Positions 7,568 to 58,603 of a stretch of 64,000 nt of DNA are shown here, piece by piece. The position numbers and the translations under genes are program-made. Under the pieces are notes generated by a model. The model saw only the letters and a list, made by a program, of their open reading frames with translations, was not told the origin of the DNA and searched no databases. The first letter of the stretch is position 1; each line of letters begins with the position of its first letter. The stretch is from Ceratothoa steindachneri. Its lineage: Eukaryota; Arthropoda; Malacostraca; Isopoda; Cymothoidae. The stretch covers positions 86,951,756 to 87,015,755 of the forward strand of contig OZ018333.1 in the NCBI GenBank assembly GCA_963969495.1. Reading direction: 5' to 3'.

Positions 7568-10006
7568 ATTGTAAGAGGGACCTGGTGAAGTATCCTCTGG
7601 GTGCATCAGTGTGAGTAATGTGTTGGTAAGTCTGTCTAGTGTGAAAGTGCTGTCTGGTAGGAAGTATGAGTGTCTGAGTGTTAAGGTGGAATTGAATGGA
7701 ATTGATTGTTAAGCTTTAATAGATTCTGGATGCAAAGCGAGCTTGGTGTATAAAGATGTGTATGACAAGGTGAGCAAGAAAGCCTTCCTGTCTGAGTGTA
7801 AGGGTAGTTTGGTAGGTATTGGTAGTAGAAGAGTGCCTGTGATTGGAATGATAAGGTCACTTGTTCGAATGCATGGTATGTTGATGAATGAATGTGAATT
7901 CTCTGTGATTGATAAGGTGAGTAGTGAGTATGGTGTGATTTTGGGGTATGATTTTATGAAAATGAATTGTATGGTTGTGCATCCTGTGAGTGATCAGATT
8001 GAGAGAAAGATTGGTAAAAATGGGGTGTATAAGTTGTATATAAGGAAAGATGGTAGTGTTTTGAGGAGTGTGTTTACTGGTATTGAGGTGACTGCTATGA
8101 AGAATGTAAGGCTTGTGAAGGGTAAAAGGGTGTCTGTTAGAGTGAGTTGTAGTAAGAATGTGAGTTTGAATGTGGGTGAGAACACTGTGATATTGGATGG
8201 AAAGGATGCGTGTTATAAGGTAAGGCGTGTTGCTTGTGTGTTTGATGGCTTGATGAGAATGAATGATCCGTTTGTATGTGTGCAGGCTGACCCCAGTGTG
8301 AAAGGGCAGGTGAGTGGTATCCAAGTTAGAGATGTACTGGGTCACCTCTCCACTGTCAATGAGGTAGGTATGGATGATAGTACGGATGTCAGGGTGAATG
8401 TTGCAGGTGAAAAGACGTGTGAATGGACGTATGATGATGTTAAGAGCATGGTGGAATTGGATGGATGTTTAACTGAGTATGAAAGGAAGGATGTGTATCG
8501 AATGATATTTGAACGAAAGGAAGCCCTCAGTAAGGGTGATCTGGATTTCGGGGTTGCAAAGCTCCGAGAATTCAAGATTGTCCTGAAGAAGGACTGCCCA
8601 ATCTATCAGTGGCCGAGGCATTTCCCACATCCGGTTGCTGATGAGATTGAGGAGCAGTGTTTGGAATTAGAGCAATTGGGGGTGATTAAAGAGAGCGAGA
8701 GTGCATGGAATAGTCCAATTGTGCCTGTACGTAAGCCGGATGGAAGATTGCATCTGTGTGTGGATTATAGAAAGGTGAATGAAAGGTTTCCGATGTGTGT
8801 GGTATCTGAAGGTGTGTATAGTATGCATGGGATGGAGTGGTTTACGAAGCTGGATCTAGTACGGGGCTATTACCAGATGCCAATTGCTGAGGGAGGCCGG
8901 CCAGTGACTGCCTTCTCTTCCACAAAGAGGCATTATCAGTTCCAAAACCTCAGTTTTGGGTTGGCTAATGCTCCTGGAGCATTCCCAGGGACAATGAATG
9001 TTGTGTTGAGTAAGTTTGCGAGTAAGAATGTGATTGCGTTTATAGATGATATTTTGATTATGACCGAGACTTTTGAGGAGCATATGAGATTAGTGAATGA
9101 TGTGTTGAGAACGTTGGAGAGTGTTGGTGTGAAGGTGAAAGTGGCGAAGTGTGAATGGTTTGCGGAAGTGGAATTCCTTAGGCATATGGTGAGTGAGAAT
9201 GGGTTGTGAAAGCCGCCGAAGTATGTTGAGAAGGTGCAAATTTTTCCGAAACCGGTGACTGTGAAGCAACTGAAGTCGTTTTTGGGTTTGATTGAGTTCC
9301 AGGGAAAGTTTATATGTGATTGTTCTGGTGTGAGTAAGCCTCTGACTGAGTGGATGGGCAAGAAAGGTAGTACAGTTGTCAGTTGGAATGATAAGATGAA
9401 TGAGGCATATGAGAAACTGAAAGAGGCAGCGGCTGAAGATGTTGAATTGGCGTATCCAGATTATACTGTGAATGTTAAAATGCTTGAATTGTATACAGAT
9501 GCAAGTGGGTATTGTATGGGAGGTTTTCTGATGCAAGAACAGCGTTTGAATGGAGAGAATGTAAGGCGAATAATTGGGTATGTATCCAAGACTATGAATG
9601 TGGCAGAATGAAAGTATTCGACTGTGGAGCGAGAGTTGGCTGCGATAAGGTATTGTTTGAGTGTTGCATCCATTTTTGTATGGTGTCAGATTTGGGATTA
9701 AAACTGACCACACCCTCTTGTGTATCTGCAGCGTATGAAGTGGGCTGATAGTAGGATTGCGAGGACTTTGGAAGATTTGAGTGACTTTGACTATGTGATT
9801 GAGTATGTGCCTGGTAAATGGAATGGAGTGGCTGATTTGATATTAAGGTATCCTGGTACGAATGATGAAAATGTGTGTGGAGTGAGTGATCCTGAGTATT
9901 TGCCGAAAGGGATTATGAATGGAAAGGAGAGTAAGGGTGGTGGTGATTCCTTGTTTGAGAATGTATGGAATGGTTTGCAAGATTTGAAGAGTGATGGAGT
10001 AGATGT
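7568..10006 (+). pseudogene. pol: pol part 1 of Gypsy copy 1: protease 1, reverse transcriptase, RNase H, start of OTU-like module
   Basis: Protease 1 keeps the active-site triplet Asp-Ser-Gly at 7722-7730, the only copy of three to do so, but a TAA stop lies just upstream at 7710-7712. The second protease motif ILGYDF follows. The reverse transcriptase shows VRKPDGRLHLCVDYRKVN, KLDLVRGYYQM and the catalytic FIDD box, mostly within the 488-codon frame 7743-9209. Relative to copy 2 a few residues (RTVKE) are missing after KVNE. RNase H has LELYTDASGY, then a TGA at about 9609 instead of an Arg codon, and YVPGKWNGVADL. The OTU-like module starts with GGGDSLFENV and is cut by the solo LTR at 10007. 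Several stops and shifts make it non-functional. Confidence 0.88.
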
Positions 10007-11016: not shown

Positions 11017-11020
11017 ATGT

Positions 11021-12965
11021 GAGAGTGCCTGATAGTGTGGATGACTTAAGGAAGGAGGTAATGAGTGAAGTATGTAGGAAGCCTGAAAGCATTGGCATGG
11101 CAAGAGTGCGGAACTTCATGAAAGAATTGAGAGCGATGTGTATGTAAGGGGTCCCGCCATTTCAGGAAGTGTTGATTCTAGTGAGTCGTTTGTATGGAGT
11201 GATTGTTTATGTGCACTTTGGTGGTGAGAGGCCGATTGTGTACAAAGATGAGAAGATGAAGGGTTTGAATCCTAATGTGGTAAATCTGCAATGTTTGAGC
11301 AGTGTGCACTACAATTGGGTGATTGAAAAGTGTTCCTATATGAGAGAGAAGAATGATTGTCTGGATGAAGATAAGTGATGATATGGGAGTTGATGACAAT
11401 GTGAATATTAGTGCTGATGTTGGTGTGCTTGTTCCTTCTGTGTATTGCAAACATGGTGAGCCTGATATGATGGAAGTGAGAGTGAAAGTTGGTGAAAGGT
11501 TGTTCTGTGGTTTGATTGATACTGGAGTGCAAGTGTCTTTAGTGAATGAGAGGATTCTGAGTAAGTATGATGAGTTTAGATGTTGCGAGCATAAACCTGT
11601 AAAGTTACGGATAAGTGAATTAGGAAATGGCATGATAGTGGCATGGGAACAGGTTAGTATGAAAGTGAGTTTGGGTAATGGTATGAATGTGAAGCATGAC
11701 TTTGTGATTATGAAAGATGAGCAAATGCTGTGTTGTTTCTTACTTGGTGTAGACTTCATGAGATTGAATGATTTGTTATAGGATGCTGATAAGGATTGTC
11801 TTATGAAAGGCGAATGTGAGGTGATGAGGTTGAATGAGTGTGCAAAGAATGTTGTCAAGTTTTGCGGTATGATTGAATTGGTCATGGATGATGAGAATGA
11901 GATTTTAAGTGATGATGATATTCTAGAGATTCAAGAGATGTGTCCTTTTGTTAGTGAGTTGAAGAGGTGTGTAATGACGCGTGTTGATTTGAATGAATGG
12001 CCAGAGTGTTTAAGTAATTTTAAAAGGTATGCTAACGATTTTGTTGTTTGTATGGATGTTGTATATTTTTTGAGGCATGTAAAGGGTGGTGATGATATAT
12101 ATGTACCTGTGATGTCCTTAGTTGGTATGATTGGTCTGGTGAAGGTTGTGCATGATAATTATGAGCATATGGGTAAGTTTAAGCTGTAGGAGTGTATGAA
12201 GGAGCATGTGTTCCATCCATTTCTGAGAACTGTTGTGAATGATGTTGCAACTGCATGTGAAAGGTGTCAGAAGTGAAAGGTGCAAGATGTGCAAGTGAAA
12301 CTACCGATGTTGAAAGTTGATGCGAAAGAACCATTTGAATTGGTAGTGATTAATTGTGTGTCTTTGCCACCTACGAGTGCTGGGAATGTTGGTATGGTTG
12401 TTAGGGTTGATCATAAAAGTAAGTTTGTCTATGCAGCACCTGTGAGAGATAAAAGGAGTGTGACTGTTGCATGTGTGGTTGAGCACTTGTTTTTTCCTAT
12501 GTGTGTATGGAAGCCTAGAAGATGTCTGAGTAATAATGGGCCTGAATTTGTAGGAAAGTGTTTGAACAAATGTCGAGAGAGAATGGTGTGGAGCATGTGA
12601 GAACTACTCCGTATGTACTATCTTCAAATGGATTGGCTGAACGTACGATAAGAGCCTTGTGTGAGATGTTGAGAATGATGAGTACAACAGTGAATGACTG
12701 GGATGTATGGTTTGGAAGAGTGTTGTGGCCATATAATTCGACTGTGCATAGTGCAACTGGAATGTCCACATGTCAGTTTGTGATGAATTTTGAAAGGCGA
12801 GTGAAAGATAGGTTTCATTTGAGTGGGAGTGAGCAGAGTGTATGGGGTGAGGCACATGAAAAGTTCTGTTCATTTGAATTAGGTGCTAAAGTATTGAAGG
12901 TGAAAGAAGTGAAGGGTAGGTTAAATGTGTCAAAGATGAGTGAAAAGTAAGATGGACCTTATAGA
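11021..12965 (+). pseudogene. pol: pol part 2 of Gypsy copy 1: rest of OTU-like module, protease 2, integrase
   Basis: The frame resumes right after the solo LTR. The OTU-like module ends with SSVHYNWVIEK (about 11296-11330). Protease 2 has GLIDTGVQVSLV and FLLGVDFM. Integrase has a HDNYEH...C-x2-C zinc-binding arm and a DDE core, but two catalytic Asp codons read AAT (Asn) at 12352-12354 and 12532-12534; the Glu of GLAERTI remains. Stops occur at about 11144, 11380, 11779, 12187 and 12274. The C-terminal module is cut after KMSEK (TAA, then DGPYR) at about 12965. The copy is dead. Confidence 0.85.
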
Positions 12966-28267: not shown

Positions 28268-31102
28268 TTGATTCTTTTCATACAAATGAGTATAAGGAAT
28301 AAGATAGATCTCTTAAGAGCGTTAGCGAGTGAAGAGAATTTTGATATAATTGCGATAACAGAGTCATGGCTTGATTTGGCAGGAAATCACTTTAAACCTG
28401 AGGTCGAGATTGAGGGCTTTAACATGTTCCATACAGATAGGAATAGGAAGAGAGGAGGAGGGGTTATTATTTATATTAAAGATAATCTCCAGTGTTGTGT
28501 AAACAGTACAATTAAATTAGATGATAACACAGAGTCATTATGGCTAAATGTAAAGGAAGGTAAAAACAAGCTTGTCATAGGATTATTATACAGACCACCA
28601 AATCTTAGTAAGGAAGCTTCAAATCTTCTGTGGCAGGAGATTGAACGGGCATGTAGAAGTAAGCATGTGTGTATAATGGGCGATTTTAATTACAGAAATA
28701 TAGACTGGGAAGCTCTTGTGGGTGATCAGGAGGCTGAGGAATTTTTGAATGTTGTCCAAGATAATTTTCTGAGGCAGATTATTAACGAACCCACTAGAGG
28801 TAATAATATACTAGATTTAGTTCTGACAAATAGGGAAGAAGTTATTAAGGATACTGAGATTGGAGGAAATTTGGGTAATAGTGACCATTGTGAAATTAGA
28901 TTTAAGATAAAATGGAATGGTATTGATAGTAGCATGAACAATGTTAAAATTCCTGACTTTAGAAGAGCAAATTATAATGGGCTAAGGACTTACCTGGAGG
29001 CAGTTGTACAGAAACCAGGCAATGAAATCAATTCAGGAATAGATTCAATGATATCAGTTAGTGGAGACAATAATCACCAGGAGGAAGAGATTACAATTGA
29101 AGAGGAGTATGAAAGAATAATTGAGCAATTAATTACAGGTCAGATGATTAACATTCCTTATAAGGAGATTAGGACTAAAAATAATGACCCAAAATGGATG
29201 AAAGATAAAATTAAGCATTATATTGGCATTAAAAAGGGCATTTATAGGAAAATAAAAAATGGAGAGGATCACTTAAGGCAGAGATATAATGAACTAGCAA
29301 GAGATGTTAAAAAGTTAGTTAGAGTAGCAAGGAGAAATTATGAAATTAAAGTGGCAAATAGGGCAAAGGAAGATCCTAAAAGTTTTTATCAATTATACAA
29401 AACTAAGGTTAGAGATAAAATAGGCCCACTTATAGATTCCAATGGAGAATTAGTGAGTGATAGGGACTCAATGGCTGGAATGCTAAATGACTTTTTTCTC
29501 TCAGTATTTACACAGGAGGATACTCTAAATATACCTGAGGTGTCAATGATCTTTCGGGGTAATGATGAAGAGAAATTAAAGGATATCTTGATCACAAAGG
29601 AGATAGTGACAAAGGAAATTGATAAAATCAAAAGTAGTAAAGCACCCGGTCCTGATGAGCTCTTTCCTAGAATTTTGAAAGAATGTAAGGATGTGTTAAG
29701 TGAGCCCCTAGCATGCATCTTTAGAAAATCATTGGAGAGTGGCATTGTGCCAGTGGCATGGAAGAAAGCCAATGTGATACCTATATTTAAGAGAGGGGAT
29801 AAAACAAATATGTCTAATTACAGACCAGTAAGTTTGACATCAGTGGTAGGGAAAATGATGGAATCTATTATAGCAAGGAATATTAGGAATCACTTGGATA
29901 AGCATAAGTTGATAAAAGAATCACAGCATGGCTTTAGTAAGGGTAAATCCTGTCTGACTAATTTGCTGTCTTTTTATAGTAAGGTGTATGAAGCAGCAGA
30001 TAATGATGAAAACTATGATATTTTATACTTGGACTTTAGTAAGGCTTTTGATCGAGTGCCACACTTACGGCTTCTGAGCAAAGTTAAAGCACACAGGATC
30101 GATGGCAGTATATTTAGGTGGATTCAGTCATGGCTTGGGGACAGACAGCAAAGAGTTAGTATAGATGGAGTTAAATCTGAGTGGGGGTGTGTTAGCAGTG
30201 GAGTTCCGCAAGGATCTGTTTTGGGTCCCTTGCTATTCTTAATTTATATTAATGATCTTGACATAGGTATAAGTAGTGACCTGAGTAAATTTGCTGATGA
30301 TACTAAGCTAGGTAGGGCCATTAGGGCTGATTCTGATGCTGTTGTAATGCAGGAGGAATTGACCATTCTGTCCAATTGGGCCGAGAAATGGCAAATGAAG
30401 TTTAACATAGACAAATGTAGTGTACTTAGTTTAGGTAGAAATAATCCACTGAATAGTTATAAATTAAATGGGAGAAATTTAGGGAGGACCGATTGTAGGA
30501 GGGACTTGGGTATTTTGGTAAGTTCAGACCTTCGTCCTAGAAAGCAATGCCTAAATGCTAAGAATAAAGCTAATAGGATATTGGGATTCATTAGGAGGAG
30601 TGTAAGCGAAAAGAGTGCGGAAGTCATTCTAAAACTGTATCTGGCGCTAGTTAGGCCTCATCTAGACTATGCAGTACAATTTTGGTCACCATATTATAGG
30701 AAGGATATTGATTTGCTTGAGTCTGTGCAGAGAAGGATGACAAAGATGATTGGTGGGCTAAGGAACTTACCTTATGGTGAAAGGCTCAGAAAACTAAATC
30801 TACATACATTGGAAAGGAGAAGAGTCAGAGGGGAATTGATTGAAGTCTTCAAATGAGTGAAAGGATATAATAAAGGGGATCTGGGTAAGGTTCTTATACT
30901 TAGTGAACATGACAGGACACGTAGCAATGGGTTTAAGCTTGATAAGTATAGGTTTAGGAAGGAGATTGGGAGGAATTGGTTTACAAATCGTGTGGTAGAT
31001 GAATGGAATAGGCTCACTAGACATGTGATAGAAGCCTCCTCTCTGGGTAGTTTTAAGAATAGATTAGATAAATATATGAATGAAGCTGCTAGATGGGACT
31101 GA
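28268..31102 (+). pseudogene. CR1-A copy 1 ORF2: endonuclease and reverse transcriptase
   Basis: The largest nearly open frame of the window: 862 codons to a TGA at 30854-30856, then 81 more codons in the same frame. Copy 2 has TGG there, so one G-to-A change made the stop. The endonuclease shows ITESW (Glu32), LLYRPP, MGDFN (Asp139) and GNSDH (205-207). The RT shows KKANVIPIFKRGD, NYRPVSLTS, LYLDFSKAFD (about 588-600), SSGVPQGSVLGPLLF and the catalytic FADD (about 674-677). The C-terminus has NRVVDEWNRL. The element is 5'-truncated at about 28286, which removes the first endonuclease strand and ORF1, so the first ATGs are host-derived. Apart from these lesions the protein looks active. Confidence 0.9.
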
Positions 31103-31861: not shown

Positions 31862-32630
31862 TGTAGCGGGCCGAAAATAGATCTCTAATCCCAATCGATA
31901 ATCGATCCAACCCGCTTCCTACACTGTCCGGATGTGAGAAATCGAGGGAGAATAAAACGGATTGTATATACAGTCCCTTTACTTACAAAAAAAATACAAT
32001 GATAGTTACAGTTTATATTTACAACAAATTTATATTTACTAGGGAAGTGTGCACACTTCAAAATGAGGCTAAATTCCCCAATCAAAATACGATACCAAAC
32101 GAGAATCTTATAACCGGCGGATACAACAATTTACTTATATTCTACACAAAACAAAAAAAACACAACCACAACCGAACGAAAAGGGGGCACGCGCTATCAC
32201 TTGCTGGAGGTGGGTGGTAGTTGGCTAACTTAGAAGGAGGCAGGATTGTCAACGAAGGCAGGTATGGCGGTTCAGGTGGTTAGAGACACGAAAGCCCTCC
32301 TCTCAGGGCTGGGTGGAGCACTCGTCTATAGAACCCCTCTTGCTACCAGTCCACACTTCCACTCTCTCTTTCCAGAATAACGCTTTGATAAAAGATTAAT
32401 TTAAACAAAGTACAATCTTATTATAGTGATATCTCAAAATTAGCTACTATCTTTCCAGAATAACGCCTGGAAAGAAAGAAAAACATGGTAATCATTTTAT
32501 ACATGAAATAAACAAAAATAAAACAAACCCATTCCCATTCACACACATTCTTACAGAGGGAGGGAGAGGGTACTGAGAAAAGGGGTGGGAGAATGGCCCT
32601 TTTACACACACTCACATTCGCCCCACCACA
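31862..32630 (-). repeat. 3' LTR of Gypsy copy 2
   Basis: 769 bp. It lacks one of two 82-bp units found in the 5' LTR. TATA-like and AATAAA-type signals are possible but not assigned. Confidence 0.93.
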
Positions 32631-32679: not shown

Positions 32680-35600
32680 TCACTCTTCACGGTACCACGT
32701 GTGCTCAATCGCACCCTTCTGCACCCATTCACACTGTTCTACTGGTCCCTGGCTACACGTAGCAATTGGTCGGGTTTGTTCATCAGTCATCCTGTCAGTC
32801 TCATCGTCACTATTTATCATATCATCCACCATACTTTTAGCCCTCATTACCAGTTCTCCCATCTCACGACCAAATTCTTTCATACTCTTCCGTTCAGAAC
32901 CCTCACTCTTCATACCCCCATTCATCAGCTCCTCACTCACAGCTCTCATCCAACTCAAGGTACATTCTTGCGAAACAGACAGGTCACTCACATCCCCTGT
33001 ATTCTCAACAGGCATACCAGAAACCCCTTCGACTGGTTCCCACCAGAAACCTGAAAAATCAGCCACTTCATCATTCACTACATCAAACTCACCCCTACTA
33101 TTACCATTCATAAAACCCGAAAAATCAGCCACACTAGGTTCATTCTGACCAAACACACTATCATTCATACTGTTCCCAAAACCAGAAAAATCAGGCACAG
33201 GCAGCTCACTCACTCGTCTACTTATACCAGCCAAATCACTCACCTGTTTACGCAAAAACTCAATCTCCCTTTCAAGATCCCCCATACCAGAAACACTCTG
33301 CTCAGACTTACTTTCATTCGTACTTGCATTCTTCCTTTCACCTTTCTTTGTACGCTTTCTACTTCTCGAGACTAAGACTAGCTCTTTCCCAGACAGATCC
33401 ATACTATCACATTCAATCTCATCATCTTGCACTTTACCTCTCTCTCTACACAGTCCATACACCGGATGGCTCACCAGGTAGTCAGGAGGTTCTCTCCATC
33501 TCCTTAACTGACTCTGATGAGCCCGCACTCTCTCAGTCATGCCGTCATTCAAACTCTCCAAAACATACGTTACCCCATTTTCCCAAACTCTCACAACTCT
33601 ATAAGGTCCATCAAACTTCTCACTCATCTTTGATACATTCAACCTACCCTTCACTTCTTTCACCTTCAATACTTTTGTACCTAATTCAAATGAACGGAAC
33701 CTTTCATGCGCCTAAAGCCATACACTCTGCTCACTTTCACTCAAACGAAACCTATCTTTCACTCGCCTTTCAAAATTCATCACAAACTGACATGGGGACA
33801 TTCCAGTTGCACTATGCACAGTTGAATTATACGCCCACAACACTCTCCCCAGACACACATCCCAGTCATTCACTGTCGTACTCATCATTCTCAACATCTC
33901 ACACAAGGTTCTTATAGTCCGTTCAGCCAATCCATTTGAAGACGGTACATACAGAGTTGTTCTCACATGCTCCACACCATTCTCTCTCAACATTTGCTCA
34001 AACACTTCTCGTACAAATTCAGGCCCATTATCACTCAGACATCTTCTAGGCTTCCATACACACATAGGAAAGAACAACTGCTCAACCACACGCGCAACAG
34101 TCACACTCCTTTTATCTCTCACAGGCGCTGCATACACAAACTTACTTTTATGGTGAACCATCACAACCATACCAACATTCCCAGCACTCGTACGCGGCAA
34201 CGACACACAATCAATCACTACCAATTCAAACGGTTCTTTCGCATCAACTTTCAACATCGGTGGTTTCACTTGCACACCTTGCACCTTTCGCTTCTGACAC
34301 CTTTCACACGTAGTTGCAACATCATTCACAACAATTCTCAGTAACGGGTGGAACACATGCTCCTTCATACACTCCCACAGCTTAAATTTACCCATATGCC
34401 CATAATTATCATGCACAACCTTCACCAGACCAATCATACCAACTAAGGACATCACAGGTACATACATATCATCACCACCCTTCACATGCCTCACAAAATA
34501 TACAACATCCATACAAACAACAAAATCCTTAGCATACCTTTTAAAATCACTTAAACACTCTGGCCATCCATTCAAATCAACACGCATCATTACACACCTC
34601 TTCAACTCACTAACAAAAGGACACATCTCTTGCATCTCTAGAATATCATCATCACTTAAAATCTCATTCTCATCATCCATGACCAACTCAATCATGCCAC
34701 AAAACTTGACAACATTCTTTGCACACTCATTCAACCTCATCACCTCACATTCACCTTTCATAAGACGATCTTTATCAGCATCCAAAGACAAATCATTCAA
34801 TCTCATAAAGTCTACACCAAGCAAGAAACAACAAGGCATTTGCTCACCTTTCAGAATCACAAAGTGATGCTTCACATTCACACCATTACCCAAACTTACT
34901 TTCAGACTAACCTGTTCCCATGCCACTATCATGCCATTCCCTAATCCACTTACCTGTAACTTCACAGGTTTATGCTCGCAACATCTAAACTCTTCATACT
35001 TACTCAGAATATTCTCATTCACTAAAGACACTTGCGCTCCAGTATCAATCAAACCACAGAACAACCTTTCACCAACTTTCACTCTCGCTTCCATCATATC
35101 AGGTTCACCATGTTCGCAATACACCGAAGGAACAAGCACACCAACATCAGCACTGATATCCACACTGTCATTAACTCCCATATCATCACTCAACACACAC
35201 TCATCTTCATCCAGACAATCATTCTTCTCTCTTATATATGAACACTTTTCAATTACCCAATTGTAGTGCACACCGCTCAAACATTGCAGATGTACCACAT
35301 TAGGATTCAAACCCTTCATCTTCTCATCCTTGTACACAATCGGCCTCTCACCACCAAAGTGCACATAAACAATCACTCCATACAAACGACTCACTACAAT
35401 CAACACTTCCTGAAATGGCGGGACCCCTTGCATACACATCGCTCTCAATTCTTTCATGAAGTTCCGCACCTTTGCCATACCAATGCTTTCAGGCTTCCTA
35501 CACACTTCATTCATTACCTCCTTCCTTAAATCATCTACACTATCGGGCACTCTCACATCTACTCCATCACTCTTCAAATCTTGCAAACCATTCCATACAC

Positions 35601-38026
35601 TCTCAAACAAGGAATCACCACCACCCTTACTCTCTTTTCCATTCATAATTCCTTTCGGCAAATACTCAGGACACTCACTCCACGCACATTTTCATCATTC
35701 GTACCAGGATACCTTGACATCAAATCAGCCACTCCATTCCGTTCACCAGGCACATACTCAATCACATAGTCAAAGTCACTCAAATCTTCCAAAGTCCTTG
35801 CAATCCCACTATCAGCCCACTTCATACGCTGCAGATACACAAGAGGTTGATGATCGGTTTTTATCACAAACCTCACACCATACAAAAATGGACGCATCAC
35901 TTTCAAACAATATCTTATCGCAGCCAGCTCTCGTTCCACAGTCGAATACTTTCGTTCTGCAACATTCATAGCCTTGGATACATACCCAATTATTCGCCTG
36001 ACATTCTCTCCATTCAAACGCTGCTCTTGCATCAGAAAACCTCCCATACAATACCCACTCGCATCTGTATACAATTCTAGCATTTTAGCATTTACACTAT
36101 AATCTGGGTAAGCCAATTCAACATCTTCAGCCGCTGCCTCTTTCAGTCTCTCATACGCCTCATTCATCTTATCATTCCACTTGACAACCGTACTACCTTT
36201 CTTGCCCATCCACTCAGTCAGAGGCTTACTCACACCAGAACAATCACGTATAAACTTTCGCTGGAACTCAATCAAACCCAAAAATGACTTCAGTTGCTTC
36301 ACAGTCACCGGTTTAGGAAACATTCGCACCTTCTCAAAAAATACTTCGATGATTTTCGCAATCCATTCTCACTCACCATATGCCCAAGGAATTCCACTTC
36401 TTTCGCAAACCATTCACACTTCGCCACTTTCACCTTCACACCAACACTCTCCAACGTTCTCAACACATCATTCACCAATCTCATATGCTCCTCAAAAGTC
36501 TCAGTCATAATCAAAATATCATCTATAAACGCAATCACATTCTTACTCGCAAACTTACTCAACACAACATTCATTGCCCGCTGGAAGGCTCCGGGAGCAT
36601 TAGCCAACCCAAAGCTGAGGTTCCGGAACTGGTAATGCCTCTTTGAGGAAGAGAAGGCAGTTACTGGCCGGCTCTCCTCAGCAATGGGCATCTGGTAATA
36701 CCCCCGTACCAGATCCAGCTTCGTAAACCACTCCATCCCATGCATACTATACACACACTCAGATACCACACACATCGGAAACCTTTCTTTCACAGTCCTT
36801 TCATTCACCTTTCGATAATCCACACACAGGCGCAATCTTCCATCCGGCTTACGTACAGGTACAATTGGACTATTCCATGCACTCTCGCTCTCTTCAATCA
36901 CCCCCAATTGCTCCAATTCCAAACACTGCTCCTCAATCTCATCAGCAACCGGACGTGGGAAATGCCTCGGCCACTGATAGATTGGGGAGTCCTCCTTCAG
37001 GACAATCTTGAATTCCGGGAGCTTTGCAACCCCGAAATCCAAATCACCCTTACTGAGGGCTCCCTTTCGCTCAAATATCATTCGATACACATCCTCCCTT
37101 TCATACTCAGTCAAACATCCATCCAATTTCACCATGTCCTTCACCTCATTATACATCCATTCACATGTCTTTTCATTCGCAACATTCACCCTGATATCCG
37201 TACTATCATCCATACCTACCTCATCAACAGTGGAGAGGTGGCCCAGTACATCTCCGACTTGGATTCCCCTCACCTGCCCTTTCACACTGGGGTCCGCCTG
37301 CACACATACAAAAGGATCATTCATTCTCATCAAGCCATCAAACACACAAGCAACACGCCTTACCTTATAACACGCATCTGTTCCATCCAATATCACAGTG
37401 TTCTCACTCACATTCAAACTAACATCCTTACTCCAACTCACTCTAACAGACACCCTTTCACCCTTCACAAGCCTTACATTCTCCATAGCAGTCACCTCAA
37501 TACCAGTAAACACACTCCTCAAAACGCTACCATCTTTCCCTACATACAACTTATACACCCCATTTTTACCAATCTTTCTCTCAATCTGATCACTCGCAGG
37601 ATGCACAACCATATGATTCATTTTCATAAAATCATAGCCCAAAATCACACCATACTCACTACTCACCTTATCAATCACAGAAAATTCACATTCATTCATC
37701 ATCATACCATGCATTCGAACAGCTAACCTTATCATTCCAATCACAGGCACTCTCCTATTACCAATACCTACCAAACTACCCTTGCACTCAGACAGGAGGG
37801 CTTTCTCGCTAACCTTGTCATACACATCTTTATACACCAAGCTCGCCTTGCATCTAGAATCTATTAAAGCCAAACACTCAATTCCATTCAATTCCACCTT
37901 AACACTCAGACACTCATACTTCCTACCAGACAGCACTTTCACACTAGACAGACTTACCAACACATTACTCACACTCATGCACCCAGAGGATACTTCAGCA
38001 GGTACCCTCTTACCATTCAGTTTCCC
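32680..38026 (-). pseudogene. pol: pol of Gypsy copy 2: PR1-RT-RNase H-OTU-like-PR2-integrase-tail
   Basis: A polyprotein of about 1,770 codons in one ancestral frame, reached from gag by a predicted -1 shift. Protease 1: LALIDSRCK (Asp40; the expected Gly is Arg) and VILGYDF. RT: VRKPDGRLRLCVDYRKVN, KLDLVRGYYQM, FIDD at 36518-36529. RNase H: LELYTDASGY, STVERELAA, IKTDHQPL, YVPGERNGVADL. OTU-like: GGGDSLFESV to GVHYNWVI (35242-35625). Protease 2: LIDTGAQVSLV and FLLGVDFM (34807-35094). Integrase: HDNYGH and CERC, then Asp, Asp and Glu in VVIDC, LSDNGPEF, NGLAERTIR, followed by a GPY/F module (FDGPYRVVRV) and a Ser/Glu-rich tail with FSGF repeats. Lesions: frameshifts near 36335 and 35670, TAG at 33712-33714. 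Open pieces are 36305-37978, 35643-36329, 33712-35661 and 32680-33669. Confidence 0.93.
37985..38026 (-). promoter_or_regulatory. Predicted -1 ribosomal frameshift signal at the gag-pol junction, Gypsy copy 2
   Basis: The gag frame ends GCG GGA AAC TGA. GGGAAAC (38020-38026) is a classical X-XXY-YYZ slippery heptamer. After a 9-nt spacer comes a 9-bp hairpin: AGAGGGTAC (38002-38010), an 8-nt loop, GTATCCTCT (37985-37993), with one G-U pair. The -1 frame is open from the heptamer straight into protease 1. The heptamer and stop are the same in copy 1 (7558-7567) and copy 3 (58594-58603). Confidence 0.85.
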
Positions 38027-39715
38027 GCTTCAGACTTCCCATTCACACCTTGCACTCTCAGTCTAATCCAACACTTTTCACTTGAATGTCCTTCCGTCGC
38101 ACAATAGCTACATACATTCCTCTGGTCACGACACATCCTTTCATAATGACCAGCCTTTCCACAATTACCACATGCATATTTCATACTTTCCCCACCAGTT
38201 GCTCCACCATTCAACCTCGGACAATCTTTCTTCAAATGGTCTATTTCTTTACACTCGAAGCACTGTTTCACACTTTCCTGGCAATCCTTTATCATATGCC
38301 CTTTCTTACCACACCCAAAACATGCACCAGATGTCCACCTACATTCTGCCAACATATGACCTTTCCTTCCACACCGACGACATTCCTCAATCTTTCTCCC
38401 ACCACTCAGTCTCTCATTTGCTGGGACATACCTCGGTTTCTCTCTCATATATCCGTTCCCACGCTTGAAATTCATCTGCCCCCTTCCATTCGACCACCCT
38501 CCATTTGCCCATCCATTCTGCCGGCCCAGGAAGTTTGACATCACTCCAGCTGGTGCAGGCTTCAGGGCATCCCTGTAGCTGACAAACTGCTGGGGTGGAT
38601 GAAAGCTCCTGGGCTTCTTACCTCCAACATTCACACTGTACCATCCATCCTCTTCTAGATCGCTTTCATCATCAAATCGTCCATCTTCTAACAGTTCCAA
38701 CACATCCTCCCACATCAACCGTTCACCTGTCAGTCTCACTCTCTCCTTTCTCTTTCCACTCACCTTCGGCGGGATCGTGTCCAAAAACTTCCTTATGAGT
38801 GGTTTACATTCAATAAAAATCATCATCACCATACCTCATTCTTGCCATACTCTCAAGCCTATGTGCATACATATTCACACTTTCACTCTTCCCCATTCGA
38901 GCCTTCTCAAATTCATTCACCCTCTTATACTTCACACTCTCTTTCATTCGTTTCACCTGCCCAATCAATCTCTTCTTCACTACATCGTACTTTGGCTCTC
39001 CCACACTCATTATCACTCGCAAGAACTCCAACACTTTCCCATCCAAACAATCTCCCAGAACACTCACCCAGTGACCCTTGTTCTGCGGGTACTTGAGCTT
39101 GCAGTACCGCTCAAAATCCCCGAAGAACTCATCCATACTCTTTTCCCCATGCAATCTAAACTTATCAATCCTTGGCACTTCCCTAATCAAAATTCCTTTC
39201 CCCACATTCACTTCACTCTCCGAAGAGCTACTCTCGGTCTCACTCATTCCAATCATATTGTCACTCTCTCCCTCATCTGAGTATAGCGAATCCACACTCT
39301 TCCCTCTCGCCTTCCTATCCTTAACCTTAGAACCATGCTTACTTCCTCTCTTACTTTCCACTCTCTTCCATTCACCCCCTTTCCTACCACTTACAGTATC
39401 TTCTTTAGACTCAATCATACTGCCATCCATTCCATTTAGCGGAGTCCCTTCAGTAGGAGCAGGGGTCAGGGTTGTAGGTCCTGGGGCTGATCCAGCCCCT
39501 ATCATCATGTTATACAGGTCCTGCATCCGTCGGTCCGTCTGATCCTGTCGGTCTCCCATTTCCTTCTTCATCCTATCAGTCTTTTCATTCATCCCTTTTA
39601 TTTTATTCTCCATTCCCTCCATCATTCCCCGCAACATTTCACACTCCTCTTCTTTCTTTCTCAACTCCAGTCTCAATTGCACTACTTCTTCATTCAATGT
39701 TTCCGCTACAGCCAT
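38017..39715 (-). pseudogene. gag: gag of Gypsy copy 2
   Basis: The start is taken at the ATG of MAVAETL (39713-39715), which is conserved in all copies, although the frame is open up to 39757. Residues 1-60 form a charged coiled coil (LRLELRKKEEECEML). A Pro-rich TTLTPAP spacer, an acidic Ser-rich stretch (SETESSSSESEV) and a capsid-like region (DEFFGDFERYCKLKYP to ESMARMRYGDD) follow. The nucleocapsid has five perfect C-x2-C-x4-H-x4-C knuckles (C151, C171, C191, C221 and C241 of the 271-codon C-terminal frame). A one-base shift near 38815 divides the frame. Copy 3 reads through this point, so the shift is private to copy 2. The protein would form the particle shell and package RNA. Confidence 0.92.
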
Positions 39716-39851: not shown

Positions 39852-40702
39852 TGTAGCGGGCCGAAAATAGATCTCTAATCCCAATCGATAATCGATCCAA
39901 CCCGCTTCCTACACTGTCCGGACGTGAGAAATCGAGGGAGAATAAAACGGATTGTATATACAGTCCCTTTACTTACAAAAAAAATACAATGATAGTTACA
40001 GTTTATATTTACAACAATTTTATATTTACTAGGGAAGTGTGCACACTTCAAAATGAGGCTAAATTCCCCAATCAAAATACGATACCAAACGAGAATCTTA
40101 TAACCGGCGGATACAACAATTTACTTATATTCCACACAAAACAAAAAAAACACAACCACAACCGAACGAAAAGGGGGCACGCGCTATCACTTGCTGGAGG
40201 TGGGTGGTAGTTGGCTAACTTAGAAGGAGGCAGGATTGTCAACGAAGGCAGGTATGGCGGTTCAGGTGGTTAGAGACACGAAAGCCCTCCTCTCAGGGCT
40301 GGGTGGAGCACTCGTCTATAGAACCCCTCTTGCTACCAGTCCACACTTCCACTCTCTCTTTCCAGAATAACGCTTTGATAAAAGATTAATTTAAACAAAG
40401 TACAATCTTATTATAGTGATATCTCAAAATTAGCTACTATCTTTCCAGAATAACGCTTTGTTAAAGCTTAATTTAAACAAAGATCTATCTTATTATAGTG
40501 ATATCTCAAAATTAGCTACTATCTTTCCAGAATAACGCCTGGAAAGAAAGAAAAACATGGTAATCATTTTATACATGAAATAAACAAAAATAAAACAAAC
40601 CCATTCCCATTCACACACATTCTTACAGAGGGAGGGAGAGGGTACTGAGAAAAGGGGTGGGAGAATGGCCCTTTTACACACACTCACATTCGCCCCACCA
40701 CA
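39852..40702 (-). repeat. 5' LTR of Gypsy copy 2
   Basis: 851 bp, TG..CA ends. It holds two 82-bp units (with CTTTCCAGAATAACGC starts) where the 3' LTR has one. The two units differ from one another in the AAAGATTAATTT / AAGCTTAATTT block, so the duplication predates this insertion. Confidence 0.93.
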
Positions 40703-42984: not shown

Positions 42985-45732
42985 GAGTATAAGGAATAAG
43001 ATAGATCTCTTAAGAGCGTTAGCGAGTGAAGAGAATTTTGATATAATTCGATAACAGAGTCATGGCTTGATTTGGCAGGTAATCACTTTAAACCTGAGGT
43101 TGAGATTGAGGGCTTCAACATGTTCCATACAGATAGGAATAGGAAGAGAGGAGGAGGGGGTATTATTTATATTAAAGATAATCTCCAGTGTTGTGTAAAC
43201 AGTACAATTAAATTAGATGATAACACAGATTCATTATGGCTAAATGTAAAAGAAGGTAAAAACAAGCTTGTCATAGGATTATTATACAGACCACCAAATC
43301 TTAGTAAGGAAGCTTCAAATCTTCTGTGGCAGGAGATTGAACGGGCATGTAGAAGTAAGCATGTGTGTATAATGGGCGATTTTAATTACAGAAATATAGA
43401 CTGGGAAGCTCTTGTGGGTGATCAGGAGGCTGAGGAATTTTTGAATGTTGTCCAAGATAATTTTCTGAGGCAGATTATTAACGAACCCACTAGAGGTAAT
43501 AATATACTGGATTTAGTTCTGACAAATAGGGAAGAAGTTATTAAGGATACTGAGATTGGAGGAAATTTGGGTAATAGTGACCATTGTGAAATTAGATTTA
43601 AGATGAAATGGAATGGTATTGATAGTAGCATGAACAATGTTAAAATTCCTGACTTTAGAAGAGCAAATTATAATGGGCTAAGGACTTACCTGGAGGCAGT
43701 TGTACAGAAACCAGGCAATGAAATCAATTCAGGAATAGATTCAATGATATCAGTTAGTGGAGACAATAATCACCAAGAGGAAGAGATTACAATTGAAGAG
43801 GAGTATGAAAGAATAATTGAGCAATTAATTACAGGTCAGATGATTAACATTCCATATAAGGAGATTAGGACTAAGAATAATGACCCAAAATGGATGACAG
43901 ATAAAATTAAGCATGCCAAGTGTAGGCCATGAATGGTCTTTTGCAGTCTCCTTATTTCTTATGTTCTTATTTATAGGAAGATAAAAAATGGAGAGGATCA
44001 CTTAAGGCAGAGATATAATGAACTAGCAAGAGATGTTAAAAAGTTAGTTAGAGTAGCAAGGAGAAATTATGAAATTAAAGTGGCAAATAGGGCAAAGGAA
44101 GATCCTAAAAGTTTTTATCAATTATACAAAACTAAGGTTAGAGATAAAATAGGCCCACTTATAGATTCCAATGGAGAATTAGTGAGTGATAGGGACTCAA
44201 TGGCTGGAATGCTAAATGACTTTTTTCTCTCAGTATTTACACAGGAGGATACTCTAAATATACCTGAGGTGTCAATGATCTTTCGGGGTAATGATGAAGA
44301 GAAATTAAAGGATATCTTGATCACAAAGGAGATAGTGACAAAGGAAATTGATAAAATCAAAAGTAGTAAAGCACCCGGTCCTGATGAGCTCTTTCCTAGA
44401 ATTTTGAAAGAATGTAAGGATGTGTTAAGTGAGCCCCTAGCATGCATCTTTAGAAAATCATTGGAGAGTGGCATTGTGCCAGTGGCATGGAAGAAAGCCA
44501 ATGTGATACCTATATTTAAGAGAGGGGATAAAACAAATATGTCTAATTACAGACCAGTAAGTTTGACATCAGTGGTAGGGAAAATGATGGAATCTATTAT
44601 AGCAAGGAATATTAGGAATCACTTGGATAAGCATAAGTTGATAAAAGAATCACAGCATGGCTTTAGTAAGGGTAAATCCTGTCTGACTAATTTGCTGTCT
44701 TTTTATAGTAAGGTGTATGAAGCAGCAGATAATGATGAAAACTATGATATTTTATACTTGGACTTTAGTAAGGCTTTTGATCAAGTGCCACACTTACGGC
44801 TTCTGAGCAAAGTTAAAGCACACAGGATCGATGGCAGTATATTTAGGTGGATTCAGTCATGGCTTGGGGACAGACAGCAAAGAGTTAGTATAGATGGAGT
44901 TAAATCTGAGTGGGGGTGTGTTAGCAGTGGAGTTCCGCAAGGATCTGTTTTTAGGGCTGATTCTGACGCTGTTATAATGCAGGAGGAATTGACCATTCTG
45001 TCCAATTGGGCCGAGAAATGGCAAATGAAGTTTAACATAGACAAATGTAGTGTACTTAGTATAGGTATAAATAATCCATTGAATAGTTATAAATTAAATG
45101 GGAGAATTTTAGGGAGGACCGATTGTGAGAGGGACTTGGGTATTTTGGTAAGTTCAGACCTTCGTCCTAGAAAGCAATGCCTAAATGCTAAGAATAAAGC
45201 TAATATGATATTGGGATTCATTAGGAGGAGTGTAAGCAATAAGAGTGCTGAAGTCATTCTAAAACTGTATCTGGCGCTAGTTAGGCCTCATCTAGACTAT
45301 GCAGTACAATTTTGGTCACCATATTATAGGAAGGATATTGATTTGCTTGAGTCTGTGCAGAGAAGGATGACAAAGATGATTGGTGGGCTAAGGAACTTAC
45401 CTTATGGTGAAAGGCTCAGAAAACTAAATCTACATACATTGGAAAGGAGAAGAGTCAGAGGGGAATTGATTGAAGTCTTCAAATGGGTAAAAGGATATAA
45501 TAAAGGGTATCTGGGTAAGGTTCTTATACTTAGTGAACACGACAGGACACGTAGCAATGGGTTTAAGCTTGATAAGTATAGGTTTAGGAAGGAGATTGGG
45601 AGGAATTCGTTTACAAATCGTGTGGTAGATGAATGGAATAGGCTCACTAGACATGTGATAGAAGCCTGCTCTCTGGGTAGTTTTAAGAATAGATTAGATA
45701 AATATATGGATGAAGCTGCTAAATGGGACTGA
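42985..45732 (+). pseudogene. CR1-A copy 2 ORF2: endonuclease and broken reverse transcriptase
   Basis: Very similar to copy 1 but with three telling lesions. (1) A missing G near 43048 shifts the endonuclease start, so the open frame begins only at 43072. (2) At 43915-43969 a 55-bp piece identical to the element's own 3' tail replaces 22 bp and introduces a stop (43930-43932). (3) A 99-bp in-frame deletion at about 44950 removes the block from LGPLLF to the catalytic FADD, so the 599-codon frame 43933-45732 lacks RT activity. The endonuclease motifs YRPP, MGDFN and GNSDH are intact. Here the ORF2 C-terminus reads through the point where copy 1 has its TGA. Confidence 0.9.
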
Positions 45733-50967: not shown

Positions 50968-50995
50968 TGCAAGGCTTTAAAGAAGCCTTGCACAA
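50965..50995. repeat. 13-bp perfect inverted repeat at the CR1-B / flank junction
   Basis: TTGTGCAAGGCTT (50965-50977), spacer TAAAG, AAGCCTTGCACAA (50983-50995). The right arm belongs to the Jockey target; the left arm lies between the target duplication and CR1-B. Confidence 0.95.
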
Positions 50996-53211: not shown

Positions 53212-56200
53212 TCAATCACTCTTCACGGTACCACTTGTGCTCAATCGCACCCATTCACACTCCTCCACTGGTCCCTGGCTACACGTAGCAATTGGTCGGG
53301 TTTGTTCATCAGTCATCCTGTCAGTCTCATCGTCACTATTTATCATATCATCCACCATACTTTTAGCCCTCATTACCAGTTCTCCCATCTCACGACCAAA
53401 TTCTTTCATACTCTTCCATTCAGAACCTTCACTCATCATACCCCCATTCATCAGCTCCTCACTCACATCTCTCATCCAACTCAAAGTACATTCTTGCGAA
53501 ACAGACAGGTCACTCACATCCCCTGTATTCTCAACAGGCATACCAGAAACCTCTTTGACTGGTTCCCACCAGAAACCTGAAAAATCAGCCACTTCATCAT
53601 TCACTACATCAAACTCACCCCTACTATTACCATTCATAAAACCCGAAAAATCAGCCACTTCATCATTCACTACATCAAACTCACCCCTACTATTACCATT
53701 CATAAAACCCGAAAAATCAGCCACACTAGGTTCATTCTGCCCAAACGCACTATCATTCATACTGTTTCCAAAACCAGAAAAATCAGGCACAGGCAGCTCT
53801 CTCACTTGTCTACTTATACCAGGCAAATTACTCACCTGTTTACACAAAAACTCAATCTCCCTTTCAAGATCCCCCATACCAGAAACACTCTGCTCAGACT
53901 TACTTTCATTCATTCTTCCTTTCACTCTTCTTTGTACGCTTTCTACTCCTCGAGACCAAGACAAGCTCTTTCCCAGACAGATCCATACTACCTCATTCCT
54001 TCTCATCATCATGCACTTTACCCTTCTCTTTGCACAATTCATACACCAGATGGCTCACCAGGTAGTCTGGAGGTTCTCTCCATCTCCTTAACTGACTCTG
54101 ATGAGCCCGCACTCTCTCAGTCATACCGTCATTCAAACTCTCCAAAACAAACGTCACCCCATTTTCCCAAACCCTCACAACTCTATAAGGTCCATCAAAC
54201 TTCTCACTCATCTTTGACACATCAACCTACTCTTCACTTCTTTCACCTTCAATACTTTTGCACCTAATTCAAATGAATGGAACCTTTCATGGGCCTCACG
54301 CCATACACTCTGCTCACTTTCACTCAAATGAAACCTATCTTTCACTGCCTTTCAAAATTCATCACAAACTGACATGGGGACATTCCAGTTGCACTATGCA
54401 CAGTTGAATTATACGCCCACAACACTCTTCCCACACATACATCCCAGTCATTCACTGTCGTACTCATCATTTTCAACATCTCACACAAGGTTCTTATAGT
54501 ACGTTTAGCCAATCCATTTGAAGACGGTACATACGGAGTTGTTCTCACATGCTCCACACCATTCTCTCTCAACATTTGCTCAAACACTTCTCCTACAAAT
54601 TCAGGCCCATTATCACTCAGACATCTTCTAGGCTTCCATACACACATAGGAAAAAACAACTGCTCAACCACACGCGCAACAGTCTCACTCCTTTTATCTC
54701 TCACAGGCGCTGCATACACAAACTTACTTTTATGGTGAACCATCACAACCATACCAACATTCCCAGCACTCATATGCGGCAAAGACACACAATCAATCAC
54801 TACCAATTCAAACGGTTCTTTCGCATCAACTTTCAACATCGGTGGTTTCACTTGCACACCTTGCACCTTTCGCTTCTGACACCTTTCACACATAGTTGCA
54901 ACATCATTCACAACAGTTCTCAGAAATGGATGAAACACACGCTCCTTCATACACTCCCACAGCTTAAACTTACCCATATGCCCATAATTATCATGCACAA
55001 TCTTCACCAGACCAATCATACCAACTAAGGACATCACAGGTACATACATATCATCACCACCCTTCACATGCCTCACAAAATATACAACATCTATACAAAC
55101 AACAAAATCCGTTATCATACCTTTTAAAATCACTTAAACACTCTGGCCATTCATTCAAATCAACACGCATCATTATACACTTCTTCAACTCACTAACAAA
55201 AGGACATATCTCTTGCATCTCTAGAATATCCTCATCACTTAAAATCTCATTCTCATCATCCATGACCAACTTAATCATACCGCAAAACTTGACAACATTC
55301 TTTGCACACTCATTCAACCTCATCACCTCACATTCACCTTTTATAAGACAATCCTTATCAGCATACAAAGACAAATCATTCAATCCCATAAAGTCTGCAC
55401 CAAGCAAGAAACAACACGGCATTTGCTCATCCTTCAGAATCACAAAGTCAGGCTTCACATTCACACCATTACCCAAACTCACTTTCAGACTACCTGTTCC
55501 CATGCCACTATCATGCCATTCCCTAATCCACTTATCCGTAACTTTACAGGTTTATTCTCGCAACATTTAAACTCATCATACTTACTCAGAATTCTCATTC
55601 ACTAAAGACACCTGCGCTCCTGTATCAATCAAACCACAGAACAACCTTTCACCAACTTTCACTCTTGCTTCCATCATATCAGTTCCACCATGTTCGCAAT
55701 ACACAAAAGGAACAAGCACACCAACATCAGCACTGATATCCACACTGTCATTAACTCCCATATCATCACTTACTACACGCTTATCTTCATCCAGACAATC
55801 ATTCTTCTCTCTTATATATGAACACTTTTCAATCACCCAATTGTAGTGCATACCGCTCAAACATTGCAGATGTACCACATTAGGATTCAAACCCTTCATC
55901 TTCTCATCCTTGTACACAATCGGCCTCTCACCACCAAAGTGCACATAAACAATCACTCCATACAAACAACTCACTACAATCAACACTTCCTGAAATGGCG
56001 GGACCCCTTGCATACACATCGCTCTCAATTCTTTCATGAAGTTCCGCACCTTTGCCATACCAATGCTTTCAGGCTTCCTACACACTTCATTCATTACCTC
56101 CTTCCTTAAATCATCTACACTATCGGGCACTCTCACATCTACTCCATCACTCTTCAAATCTTGCAAACCATTCCATACACTCTCAAACAAGGAATCACCA

Positions 56201-58603
56201 CCACCCTTACTCTCTTTTCCATTCATAATCCCTTTCGGCAAATACTCAGGGTCACTCACTCCACACACATTTTCATCATTCGTACCAGGATACCTTGACA
56301 TCAAATCAGCCACTCCATTCCATTCACCAGGCACATACTCAATCACATAGTCAAAGTCACTTAAATCTTCCAAAGTCCTTGCAATCCTACTATCAGCCCA
56401 CTTCATACGCTGCAGATACACATGAGGTTGATCATCTGTTTTTATTACAAATCTGACACCATACAAAAATGGACGCAATACTTTCAAACAATATCTTATT
56501 GCAGCCAACTCTCGTTCCTCAGTTGAATACTTTTGTTCTGCAACATTCATAGCCTTGGATACATACCCAATTATCCGCCTGACATTCTCTCCATTCAAAC
56601 ACTGCTCTTGCATCAGAAAACCTCCCATACAATACCCACTCGCATCTGTATACAATTCAAGCATTTTAGCATTTACACTATAATCTGGGTAAGCCAATTC
56701 AACATCTTCAGCCGCTGCCTCTTTCAGTCTCTCATACGCCTCATTCATCTTATCATTCTACTTGACAACCGTACTACCTTTCTTGCCCATCCATTCAGTC
56801 AGAGGCTTACTCACACCAGAACAATCACGTTAAACTTTCGCTGGAACTCAATCAAACCCAAAAACGACTTCAGTTGCTTCACAGTCACCGGTTTAGGAAA
56901 CATTCGCACCTTCTCAACATATTTCGGTGATTTTCGCAACCCATTCTCACTCACCATATGCCCAAGGAATTCCACTTCTTTCGCAAACCATTCACACTTC
57001 GCCACTTTCACCTTGACACCAACACTCTCCAACATTCTCAACACATCATTCACCAATCTCATATGCTTCTCAAAAGTCTCAGTCATAATCAAAATATCAT
57101 CTATAAACGCAATCACATTCTTACTCGCAAACTTACTCAACACAACATTCATTGCCCGCTTGAAGGCTCCGGGAGCATTAGCCAACCCAAAACTGAGGTT
57201 CCGGAACTGGTAATGCCTCTTTGAGGAAGAGAAGGCAGTTACCGGCCAGCTCTCCTCAGCAATGGGCATCTGGTAATACCCCCGTACCAGATCCAGCTTC
57301 GTAAACCACTCCATCCCATGCATACTATACACACACTCAGATACCACACACATCGGAAACCTTTCTTTTACAGTTTTTCATTCACCTTTCTATAATCCAC
57401 ACACAGACGCAATCTTCCATCTGGCTTACGTACAGGTACAATTGGACTATTCCATGCACTCTCGCTCTCTTCAATCACCCCCAATTGCTCCAATTCAAAG
57501 CACTGCTCCTCAATCTCATTAGCAACCGGACGTGGGAAATGCCTTGGCTGCTGGTAGATTGGGGAGTCCTCCTTCAGGACAATCTTGAATTCCGGGAGCT
57601 TTGCAACCCCGAAATCCAGATCACCCTTACTGAGTGCTACCTTTCGTTCAAATATCATTCGATACACATCCTCCCTTTCATACTCAGTTAAACATCCATC
57701 CAATTCCACCATGCTCTTAACATCATCATACGTCCATTCACACGTCTTTTCACCTGCAACATTCACCCTGACATCCGTACTATCATCCATACCTACCTCA
57801 TTGACAGTGGAGAGGTGACCCAGTACATCTCCGACTTGGATTGCCCTCACCTGCCCTTTCACACTGGGGTCCGCCTGCACACATACAAAAGGATCATTCA
57901 TTCTCACTAAGCCATCAAACACACAAGCAACACGCCTTACCTTATAACACGCATCCTTTCCATCCAATATCACAGTGTTCTCACCCACATTCAAACTAAC
58001 ATCCTTACTCCAACTCACTCTAACAGACACCCTTTCACCCTTCACAAGCCTTACATTCTCCATAGCAGTCACCTCAATACCAGTAAACACACTCCTCAAA
58101 ACGCTACCATCTTTCCCTACATACAACTTATACACCCCATTTTTACCAATCTTTCTTTCAATCTGATCACTCGCAGGATGCACAACCATACGATTCATTT
58201 TCATAAAATCATACCCCAAAATCACACCATACTCACTACTCACCTTATTAATCACAGAAAATTCACATTCATTCATCATCATACCATGCATTTGAACAGC
58301 TGACCTTATCATTCCAATCACAGGCACTCTCCTATTACCAATACCTACCAAACTACCCTTGCACTCAGACAGGAGGGCTTTCTCGCTAACCTTGTCATAC
58401 ACATCTTTATACACCAAGTTCGCCTTGCATCTAGAATCTATTAAAGCGAAACACTCAATTCCATTCAATTCCACCTTCACACTCAGACACTCATACTTCC
58501 TACCAGACAGCACTTTCACACTAGACAGACTTACCAACACATTACTCCCACTCATGCACCCAGAGGATACTTCAGCAGGTACCCTCTTACCATTCAGTTT
58601 CCC
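53212..58603 (-). pseudogene. pol: pol of Gypsy copy 3
   Basis: Same domain order as copy 2. Open pieces: protease 1 and early RT (57368-58555, DSRC again in place of DSGC), RT with FIDD (56811-57353), RNase H, OTU-like module and start of protease 2 (55582-56748, in one unbroken frame), protease 2 remainder (55054-55503), integrase (54342-55133) and tail (53212-54220, two overlapping frames). The single frame 55582-56748 shows that RNase H, OTU-like module and protease 2 are translated together. The integrase Glu is Lys here (GLAKRTI, codon at 54504-54506). The tail has an extra copy of a 22-residue unit around ADFSGFMNGNSRGEF. Many shifts make it dead. Confidence 0.92.
58562..58603 (-). promoter_or_regulatory. 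Predicted -1 frameshift signal, Gypsy copy 3
   Basis: GGGAAAC (58597-58603), TGA (58594-58596), then the same 9-nt spacer and 9-bp hairpin as in copy 2. Confidence 0.83.

Follow-up and report, generated by a model that had tools for sequence, protein, structure and literature searches.

A predicted OTU-fold domain with serine at the nucleophile position lies beside a second retropepsin in the pol polyprotein of a Ty3/Gypsy lineage

Introduction

A stretch of 64,000 nucleotides from the isopod Ceratothoa steindachneri (contig OZ018333.1, positions 86,951,756 to 87,015,755; hereafter the window) contains three copies of a Ty3/Gypsy long terminal repeat (LTR) element: copy 1 on the plus strand at ~6-13 kb, copy 2, which is described here in most detail, and copy 3 on the minus strand at ~53-60 kb. 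The pol polyprotein of this element encodes a domain that is predicted to adopt the fold of the OTU superfamily, and downstream of it a second retroviral-type aspartic protease (PR2). Together they make up a single additional segment of pol, located between RNase H and integrase. Because serine replaces the catalytic cysteine, the domain is no canonical OTU cysteine protease, a conclusion that we regard as nearly certain on the basis of its sequence. It thus seems that part of the ubiquitin system has been taken up by a retroelement, since an OTU-like fold is predicted and related elements keep the domain. The best overall explanation, to which we give about an even chance, is a Ty3/Gypsy lineage with an OTU-fold domain and a second retropepsin between RNase H and integrase, in which the OTU part is a non-canonical, ubiquitin-engaging module.

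Results

Predicted OTU fold of the domain

A 649-aa open reading frame (ORF; 33712-35661, minus strand) opens with the 154 codons of the domain and continues into RVP (residues 193-288), Integrase_H2C2 and rve matches. Its principal features in copy 2 are as follows.

35200..35661, minus strand: OTU-fold domain, core 35242-35625; open frame, 154 codons modelled (AlphaFold2, Foldseek, VIA-align)
35611..35625, minus strand: GGGDS nucleophile loop, with the Ser17 codon TCC at 35611-35613, where OTU enzymes carry Cys
35260..35271, minus strand: VHYN, with His132 and Asn134; matches HYD/HYN of OTUD3/OTUD5

An original prediction, made from the letters of the window, had placed an OTU cysteine protease module here. 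All of the motifs that it quoted lie in the minus frame from 35661, GGGDSLFESV beginning at codon 13 (35625), and its coordinates, 35242..35625, are exact, 35242 being the end of codon 140, right after HYNWVIEK. Modelling with AlphaFold and structure comparison, which it had proposed beforehand, gave OTU matches. The AlphaFold2 model of the copy 2 domain has a pLDDT of 79.2 (below 50 in the last 15 residues) and a pTM of 0.77, and in the rows shown by Foldseek and VIA-align it matches OTU structures over nearly the whole domain. Structural alignments with OTUD3 (4bou), OTUD1 (4bop), OTUD5 (3tmp) and yeast Otu2 (7pl7) are at 14-19% identity. Judged from these predicted models, the domain almost certainly has the OTU superfamily fold.

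Homologs and retention of the domain

Five public proteins (P0002-P0006) encode the same stretch, four of them carrying the domain whole. P0002 was found with copy 2 as the query (E value 9e-44), P0003 and P0004 with P0002 (5e-41 and 6e-41), and P0005 and P0006 with P0004 (1e-39 and 5e-13); P0003 was not recovered with P0004 as the query. Since these proteins share 37-60% identity with copy 2 (54-60% for four of them, 37% for P0006), the OTU-like stretch is more than a product of chance. P0005 is an unbroken frame of 1,693 aa in the order first aspartic protease (PR1), reverse transcriptase (RT), RNase H, OTU, PR2, H2C2 and rve. P0003 and P0004 stop short of the integrase core, P0006 begins within RNase H, and P0002 begins within the domain itself. 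Among P0003, P0004 and P0005, with domain borders placed by hand, identity is 59-62% in the domain, 78-84% in RT and 41-51% in PR1; the linker directly after the domain is gapped and 26-36% identical. Pattern searches gave 42 + 8 matches in viral contigs and 55 in genome contigs, none of which was confirmed.

The stretch was found, as had been predicted, in all three window copies; the parts in copies 1 and 3 are these.

9900..10006, plus strand: OTU-fold domain of copy 1, N-terminal part
11017..11400, plus strand: OTU-fold domain and following linker of copy 1, C-terminal part; one in-frame stop
55783..56241, minus strand: OTU-fold domain of copy 3; open, in one frame with RNase H

The domain of copy 1 is split, as the original prediction had noted, by a 1010-bp insert at 10006/11017, and its second half contains the one in-frame stop. 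The insert itself (10007-11016) resembles a solo LTR: it is bounded by TGTAG...CTACA, and ATGT is present as a 4-bp duplication. Copy 3 is 98% identical to copy 2 over the OTU-fold DNA (540/552 columns). It had been read as holding the domain in one frame with both RNase H and the second protease: domain and RNase H do share an ORF of 388 aa, whereas only the start of the protease belongs to it, the RVP match covering residues 362-386 before the frame breaks.

Over the second half of the domain, the synonymous changes between copies 1 and 2 number 9 in 72.4 sites and the nonsynonymous ones 6 in 269.6 sites (approximate Fisher p 0.0009); codons that are a stop in either copy were skipped, not substituted. 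The claim that the module was kept by the lineage is borne out by its presence in divergent elements and by this low ratio of nonsynonymous to synonymous change (dN/dS, ~0.2), and the proposed comparison across copies gave a weaker signal for copies 1 and 3 (~0.27), on small counts. No host or viral donor was found for the putative capture that the original prediction also proposed. We conclude that the OTU-fold domain has very probably been retained under selection in its Gypsy lineage.

Serine at the position of the catalytic cysteine

GGGDS is present in 3/3 window copies and in all four homologs that cover the site (P0003-P0006). The nucleophile position is therefore Ser17 in each of these seven sequences, and the residue three positions before it is Gly instead of the Asp of the usual DGNC, so the cysteine protease of the original prediction, which overlooked the substitution, is not supported. 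In the cellular OTU sequences compared, LFRA or LYRA comes after DGNC or DGAC, whereas the element reads GGDS-[LM]F-[EK]-[SN]. No cysteine stands in this loop at the start of helix 1, which in the model begins at residue 17. The structural alignment with OTUD3 begins 1=60 and places Ser17, by alignment offset rather than by residue-level superposition, near residue 76; Cys76 is presumably the catalytic residue of OTUD3. The catalytic histidine has its counterpart in HYN, which occurs in 5/5 homologs and 3/3 window copies (VHYN in two, MHYN in copy 3) and which a weak profile comparison pairs with HYD of OTUD3.

Among copy 2 and P0003-P0006, 36 of 149 gap-free columns are invariant; window copies 1 and 3 were excluded from this count, and P0002, whose N-terminus falls short of the motif, from both the nucleophile and the invariance counts. 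Positions 131-134 are all invariant, as are seven of the nine at 13-21. What was once the active site is therefore among the best-kept parts of the domain, with its nucleophile changed.

Layout of the element and the second protease

The remaining features of copy 2 are listed in the order in which the element is read.

39852..40702, minus strand: 5' LTR, ATAT at the outer side
38017-38832: CCHC protein ORF, upstream of the OTU-fold frame
36305-37978: ORF of RT and Asp_protease, upstream of the OTU-fold frame
37604..37912, minus strand: PR1, upstream of RT; Pfam Asp_protease E 2.3e-5, 25 bits, slightly below the cut-off of 26; motif DSR
36377..36856, minus strand: reverse transcriptase; Pfam RVT_1 E 1.5e-30
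35772..36179, minus strand: RNase H (RT_RNaseH/RT_RNaseH_2); Pfam E 7.6e-27; ORF 35643-36329
34798..35085, minus strand: PR2, second retroviral-type aspartic protease; Pfam RVP 21.5 bits, cut-off 20.7, E 3e-4; DTGA intact
34282..34425, minus strand: integrase H2C2 zinc-binding domain; Pfam E 6.5e-8
33955..34239, minus strand: integrase core (rve); Pfam E 6.3e-11
31862..32630, minus strand: 3' LTR, ATAT at the outer side

Copy 2 is an LTR element of ~8.8 kb, since the two LTRs have ATAT outside both. LTR inspection and the order of the Pfam matches show the LTRs, target duplication (ATAT) and RT-RNase H-integrase order of a Ty3/Gypsy element, and the Pfam order also supports the predicted place of the domain between RNase H and integrase. 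In this copy the RNase H ORF and the OTU-like ORF are in different frames.

The usual Ty3/Gypsy layout has a single protease, upstream of RT. This element departs from it: P0004 and P0005 contain two retropepsin stretches, and in P0003 one such stretch passes Pfam, but the D[ST]G motif occurs twice. D[ST]G occurs at both protease places in P0003-P0005, and the DTG of PR2 is retained in 3/3 window copies. Two-sequence BLAST relates PR1 to PR2 in P0005 (20% identity, E 3.8e-4) and in P0004 (29%, E 2.9e-5), and detected no such relatedness in P0003. PR2 of P0006 was unrecognised by Pfam, and its assignment rests on an aligned DSG motif and the model. A doubled retropepsin beside the OTU-fold domain is a further unusual feature of this pol.

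The PR1 motif is DSR in copy 2 and in copy 3 (~58.2-58.5 kb), and DSG in copy 1 (~7.6-7.9 kb), with a stop just before it. Just upstream of PR2, a Cys-x-His pair (C185 and H187 in the numbering of the first alignment row) is invariant in all six of the sequences aligned, P0002-P0006 and copy 2.

Discussion

Relation to known systems

According to the original prediction, OTU domains also occur in non-LTR elements of the Dualen/RandI type, which would likewise be mobile elements that carry OTU; their machinery and domain order differ from those of the Gypsy element. The cellular OTUDs compared above (OTUD3, OTUD1, OTUD5 and yeast Otu2) have Cys in DGNC, whereas the element has Ser in GGDS and carries the domain within a retroelement polyprotein. 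Another likeness is to the Ginger1 DNA transposons, in which an OTU or Ulp1 domain lies C-terminal to a Gypsy-like integrase (PMC2836005). In both, OTU is joined to a Gypsy-type integrase; Ginger1, in contrast, is a cut-and-paste element with terminal inverted repeats and has its OTU after the integrase, whereas the present element has LTRs, RT and RNase H and places OTU and PR2 before it. Membership in Ginger1 was accordingly rejected, the element having LTRs and RT and an OTU N-terminal to integrase. Helitrons likewise are mobile elements with OTU, and their transposition machinery and domain order differ from those of the Gypsy element (PMC2836005). The same source describes OTU and Ulp1 domains as recurrent in DNA transposons and reports a proposed role of the ubiquitin pathway in transposition.

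Viral OTUs within polyproteins include PRO of turnip yellow mosaic virus (TYMV) and the arterivirus PLP2 of equine arteritis virus (EAV), for both of which a catalytic Cys is stated (PMC3968130); these and the nairovirus OTU belong to RNA viruses, and the element differs in having Ser. Several papain-like families, namely menin, APC5867, DUF2145, DUF2272 and DUF3750, have a conserved Ser for Cys as the element does, with no OTU listed among them in the text available (PMC10318531). According to that source the substitution is rare but observed, two enzymes keep residual activity after a Cys-to-Ser change, and activity in the natural Ser families is speculative and unproven. The LTR elements of bdelloid rotifers have also acquired enzymatic domains (extra ORFs for GDSL, DEDDy and env), but as a separate ORF3, and OTU has a word count of 0 in the text (PMC5408684).

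Among the matches listed in the open-access literature, with subscription literature mostly outside this coverage and Repbase beyond it, none described an OTU at this place in a Gypsy pol, between RNase H and integrase, and the texts consulted mentioned no natural serine switch in OTUs. The topics covered were OTUs in retroelements, inactive OTUs, extra ORFs of rotifer elements and double proteases. In the parts available, "OTU" stands for operational taxonomic unit in PMC2577118, PMC2774666 and PMC6875170, PMC11943222 does not say that its OTU gene belongs to an LTR pol, and OTU was not found in PMC6338049 or PMC4640811. We have thus not found described the LTR-element host class and pol place for an OTU, or the serine switch; the fold, and the habit of mobile elements of carrying such domains, are known.

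Possible roles of the domain

The reading that we favour, at somewhat under an even chance, is a module that engages ubiquitin without canonical catalysis. Its neighbour integrase, its OTU surface and its resemblance to Ginger1 point to such a module, which may bind ubiquitin or a ubiquitin-like protein through its OTU surface, independently of classical cysteine chemistry. After processing it could remain with or beside the PR2-integrase part of the polyprotein, and there might make integrase or the pre-integration complex less prone to turnover that depends on ubiquitin, or alternatively tether either of them to ubiquitinated chromatin or repair factors. About 13% of deubiquitinases are counted as pseudoenzymes with scaffold or allosteric roles, some of these labels being under reconsideration (PMC10919355, in the portion available).

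Several findings weigh against an OTU fold that is retained and engages ubiquitin. Sequence profiles do not detect OTU: Pfam, searched with single sequences and with the family, gave no OTU family for 7/7 alignment members (up to E 10) or for the five full proteins (up to E 0.1), searches of PDB profiles (phmmer, hmmsearch) and of NCBIfam likewise gave no OTU match, and hhalign against three OTUD sequences paired the expected His yet reached only 24% with a shallow profile, short of the >90% that the original prediction had set as support. A second model has a mean pLDDT of 54 (~66 across the OTU part), and the two models are not independent, because most of their 7 and 6 alignment rows are common to both. 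As for retention, domain identity is not far above that of every inter-domain stretch, since others in P0003-P0005 reach 39-54%. Copies 1 and 3 differ by 8 synonymous changes in 71.7 sites and 8 nonsynonymous in 270.3 (ratio ~0.27, small counts); a slightly longer cut of copies 1 and 2 gives a dN/dS of 0.20, beside 0.46 for PR1-RT and 0.38 for PR2-IN, as point values; and copies 2 and 3, with 2 synonymous and 3 nonsynonymous changes over 154 codons, hold too few to inform. P0002, one of the five homologs, is uninformative on the nucleophile because the predicted protein begins inside the domain, beyond its GGGDS end. Finally, that Ser and His are strictly conserved speaks for catalysis as much as for binding.

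This last point bears on a serine-based hydrolase, unlikely in our estimate, in which Ser17, His132 and Asn134 would work on the OTU scaffold to cleave ubiquitin, a ubiquitin-like protein or the element's own polyprotein. The five sequences compared show no variation in GGGDS or VHYN, and positions of a kind that pseudoenzymes usually lose are here kept; a best-kept site with an altered nucleophile is unlike the usual decay and leaves room for serine chemistry. The natural Ser-for-Cys papain-like families and the two enzymes with residual activity add to this case, but the activity of those families is called speculative and no OTU is listed among them in the text available (PMC10318531), and Gly takes the place of the Asp found at -3 in the OTU motif. 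We think binding of ubiquitin-like partners likelier than serine use for this domain. The specific form in which such an enzyme, working in cis or trans on ubiquitin or a ubiquitin-like protein, protects integrase or the pre-integration complex is likewise unlikely; if it were true, the OTU family would contain a natural change from Cys to Ser, and an LTR pol would have an enzyme of the ubiquitin system built in. An overlapping proposal, by analogy with TYMV PRO and EAV PLP2, is a cis-acting protease that would separate RT-RNase H from PR2-integrase. The site at the RNase H/integrase junction would suit it, and viral OTUs with a double role exist (PMC3968130, in the portion available), but Ser replaces Cys and a third protease is unneeded because two aspartic proteases are already encoded, with D[ST]G at both places in P0003-P0005; we regard it as improbable.

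Roles outside ubiquitin engagement and hydrolysis, as pure spacer, tether or other, are together about as unlikely as serine catalysis. One of these, a structural tether between RNase H and integrase that keeps the OTU fold and neither binds ubiquitin nor catalyses, is itself rather unlikely: the constant place of the domain would fit, and the Cys-x-His pair invariant in 6/6 sequences hints at a defined linker architecture, but it is the former active site, and not the core alone, that is densely conserved. Two further alternatives are strongly disfavoured. A non-conserved spacer with a chance likeness to OTU, for which the failure of sequence profiles and the identity of some other inter-domain stretches could be cited, is very improbable. 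Slighter still is the case for a GDSL/SGNH esterase of the kind that certain rotifer LTR elements have captured and that is also present in some non-LTR elements. GGGDSLF does hold a GDSL-like block with Ser, and SGNH enzymes are known in retroelements (PMC5408684, in the portion available), but P0004-P0006 have GDSM instead, no Pfam lipase or esterase matched, and the structure matches shown include OTU structures spanning nearly the whole domain and none of SGNH type, an absence that would not on its own rule out that family.

Should the domain owe its retention to some function, the handling of host ubiquitination by retroelements could be tested directly on one small domain, which would also be a natural test of whether the OTU scaffold works with serine.

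Other elements in the window

ORFs for RT and/or endonuclease of the non-LTR type lie at 28268-30856 (plus strand), 43933-45732 (plus), 46777-48324 (minus) and 49625-50980 (plus). Pieces of 300 bases from the regions 28268-30856 and 43933-45732 are 96-100% identical (families D2, D4 and D8).

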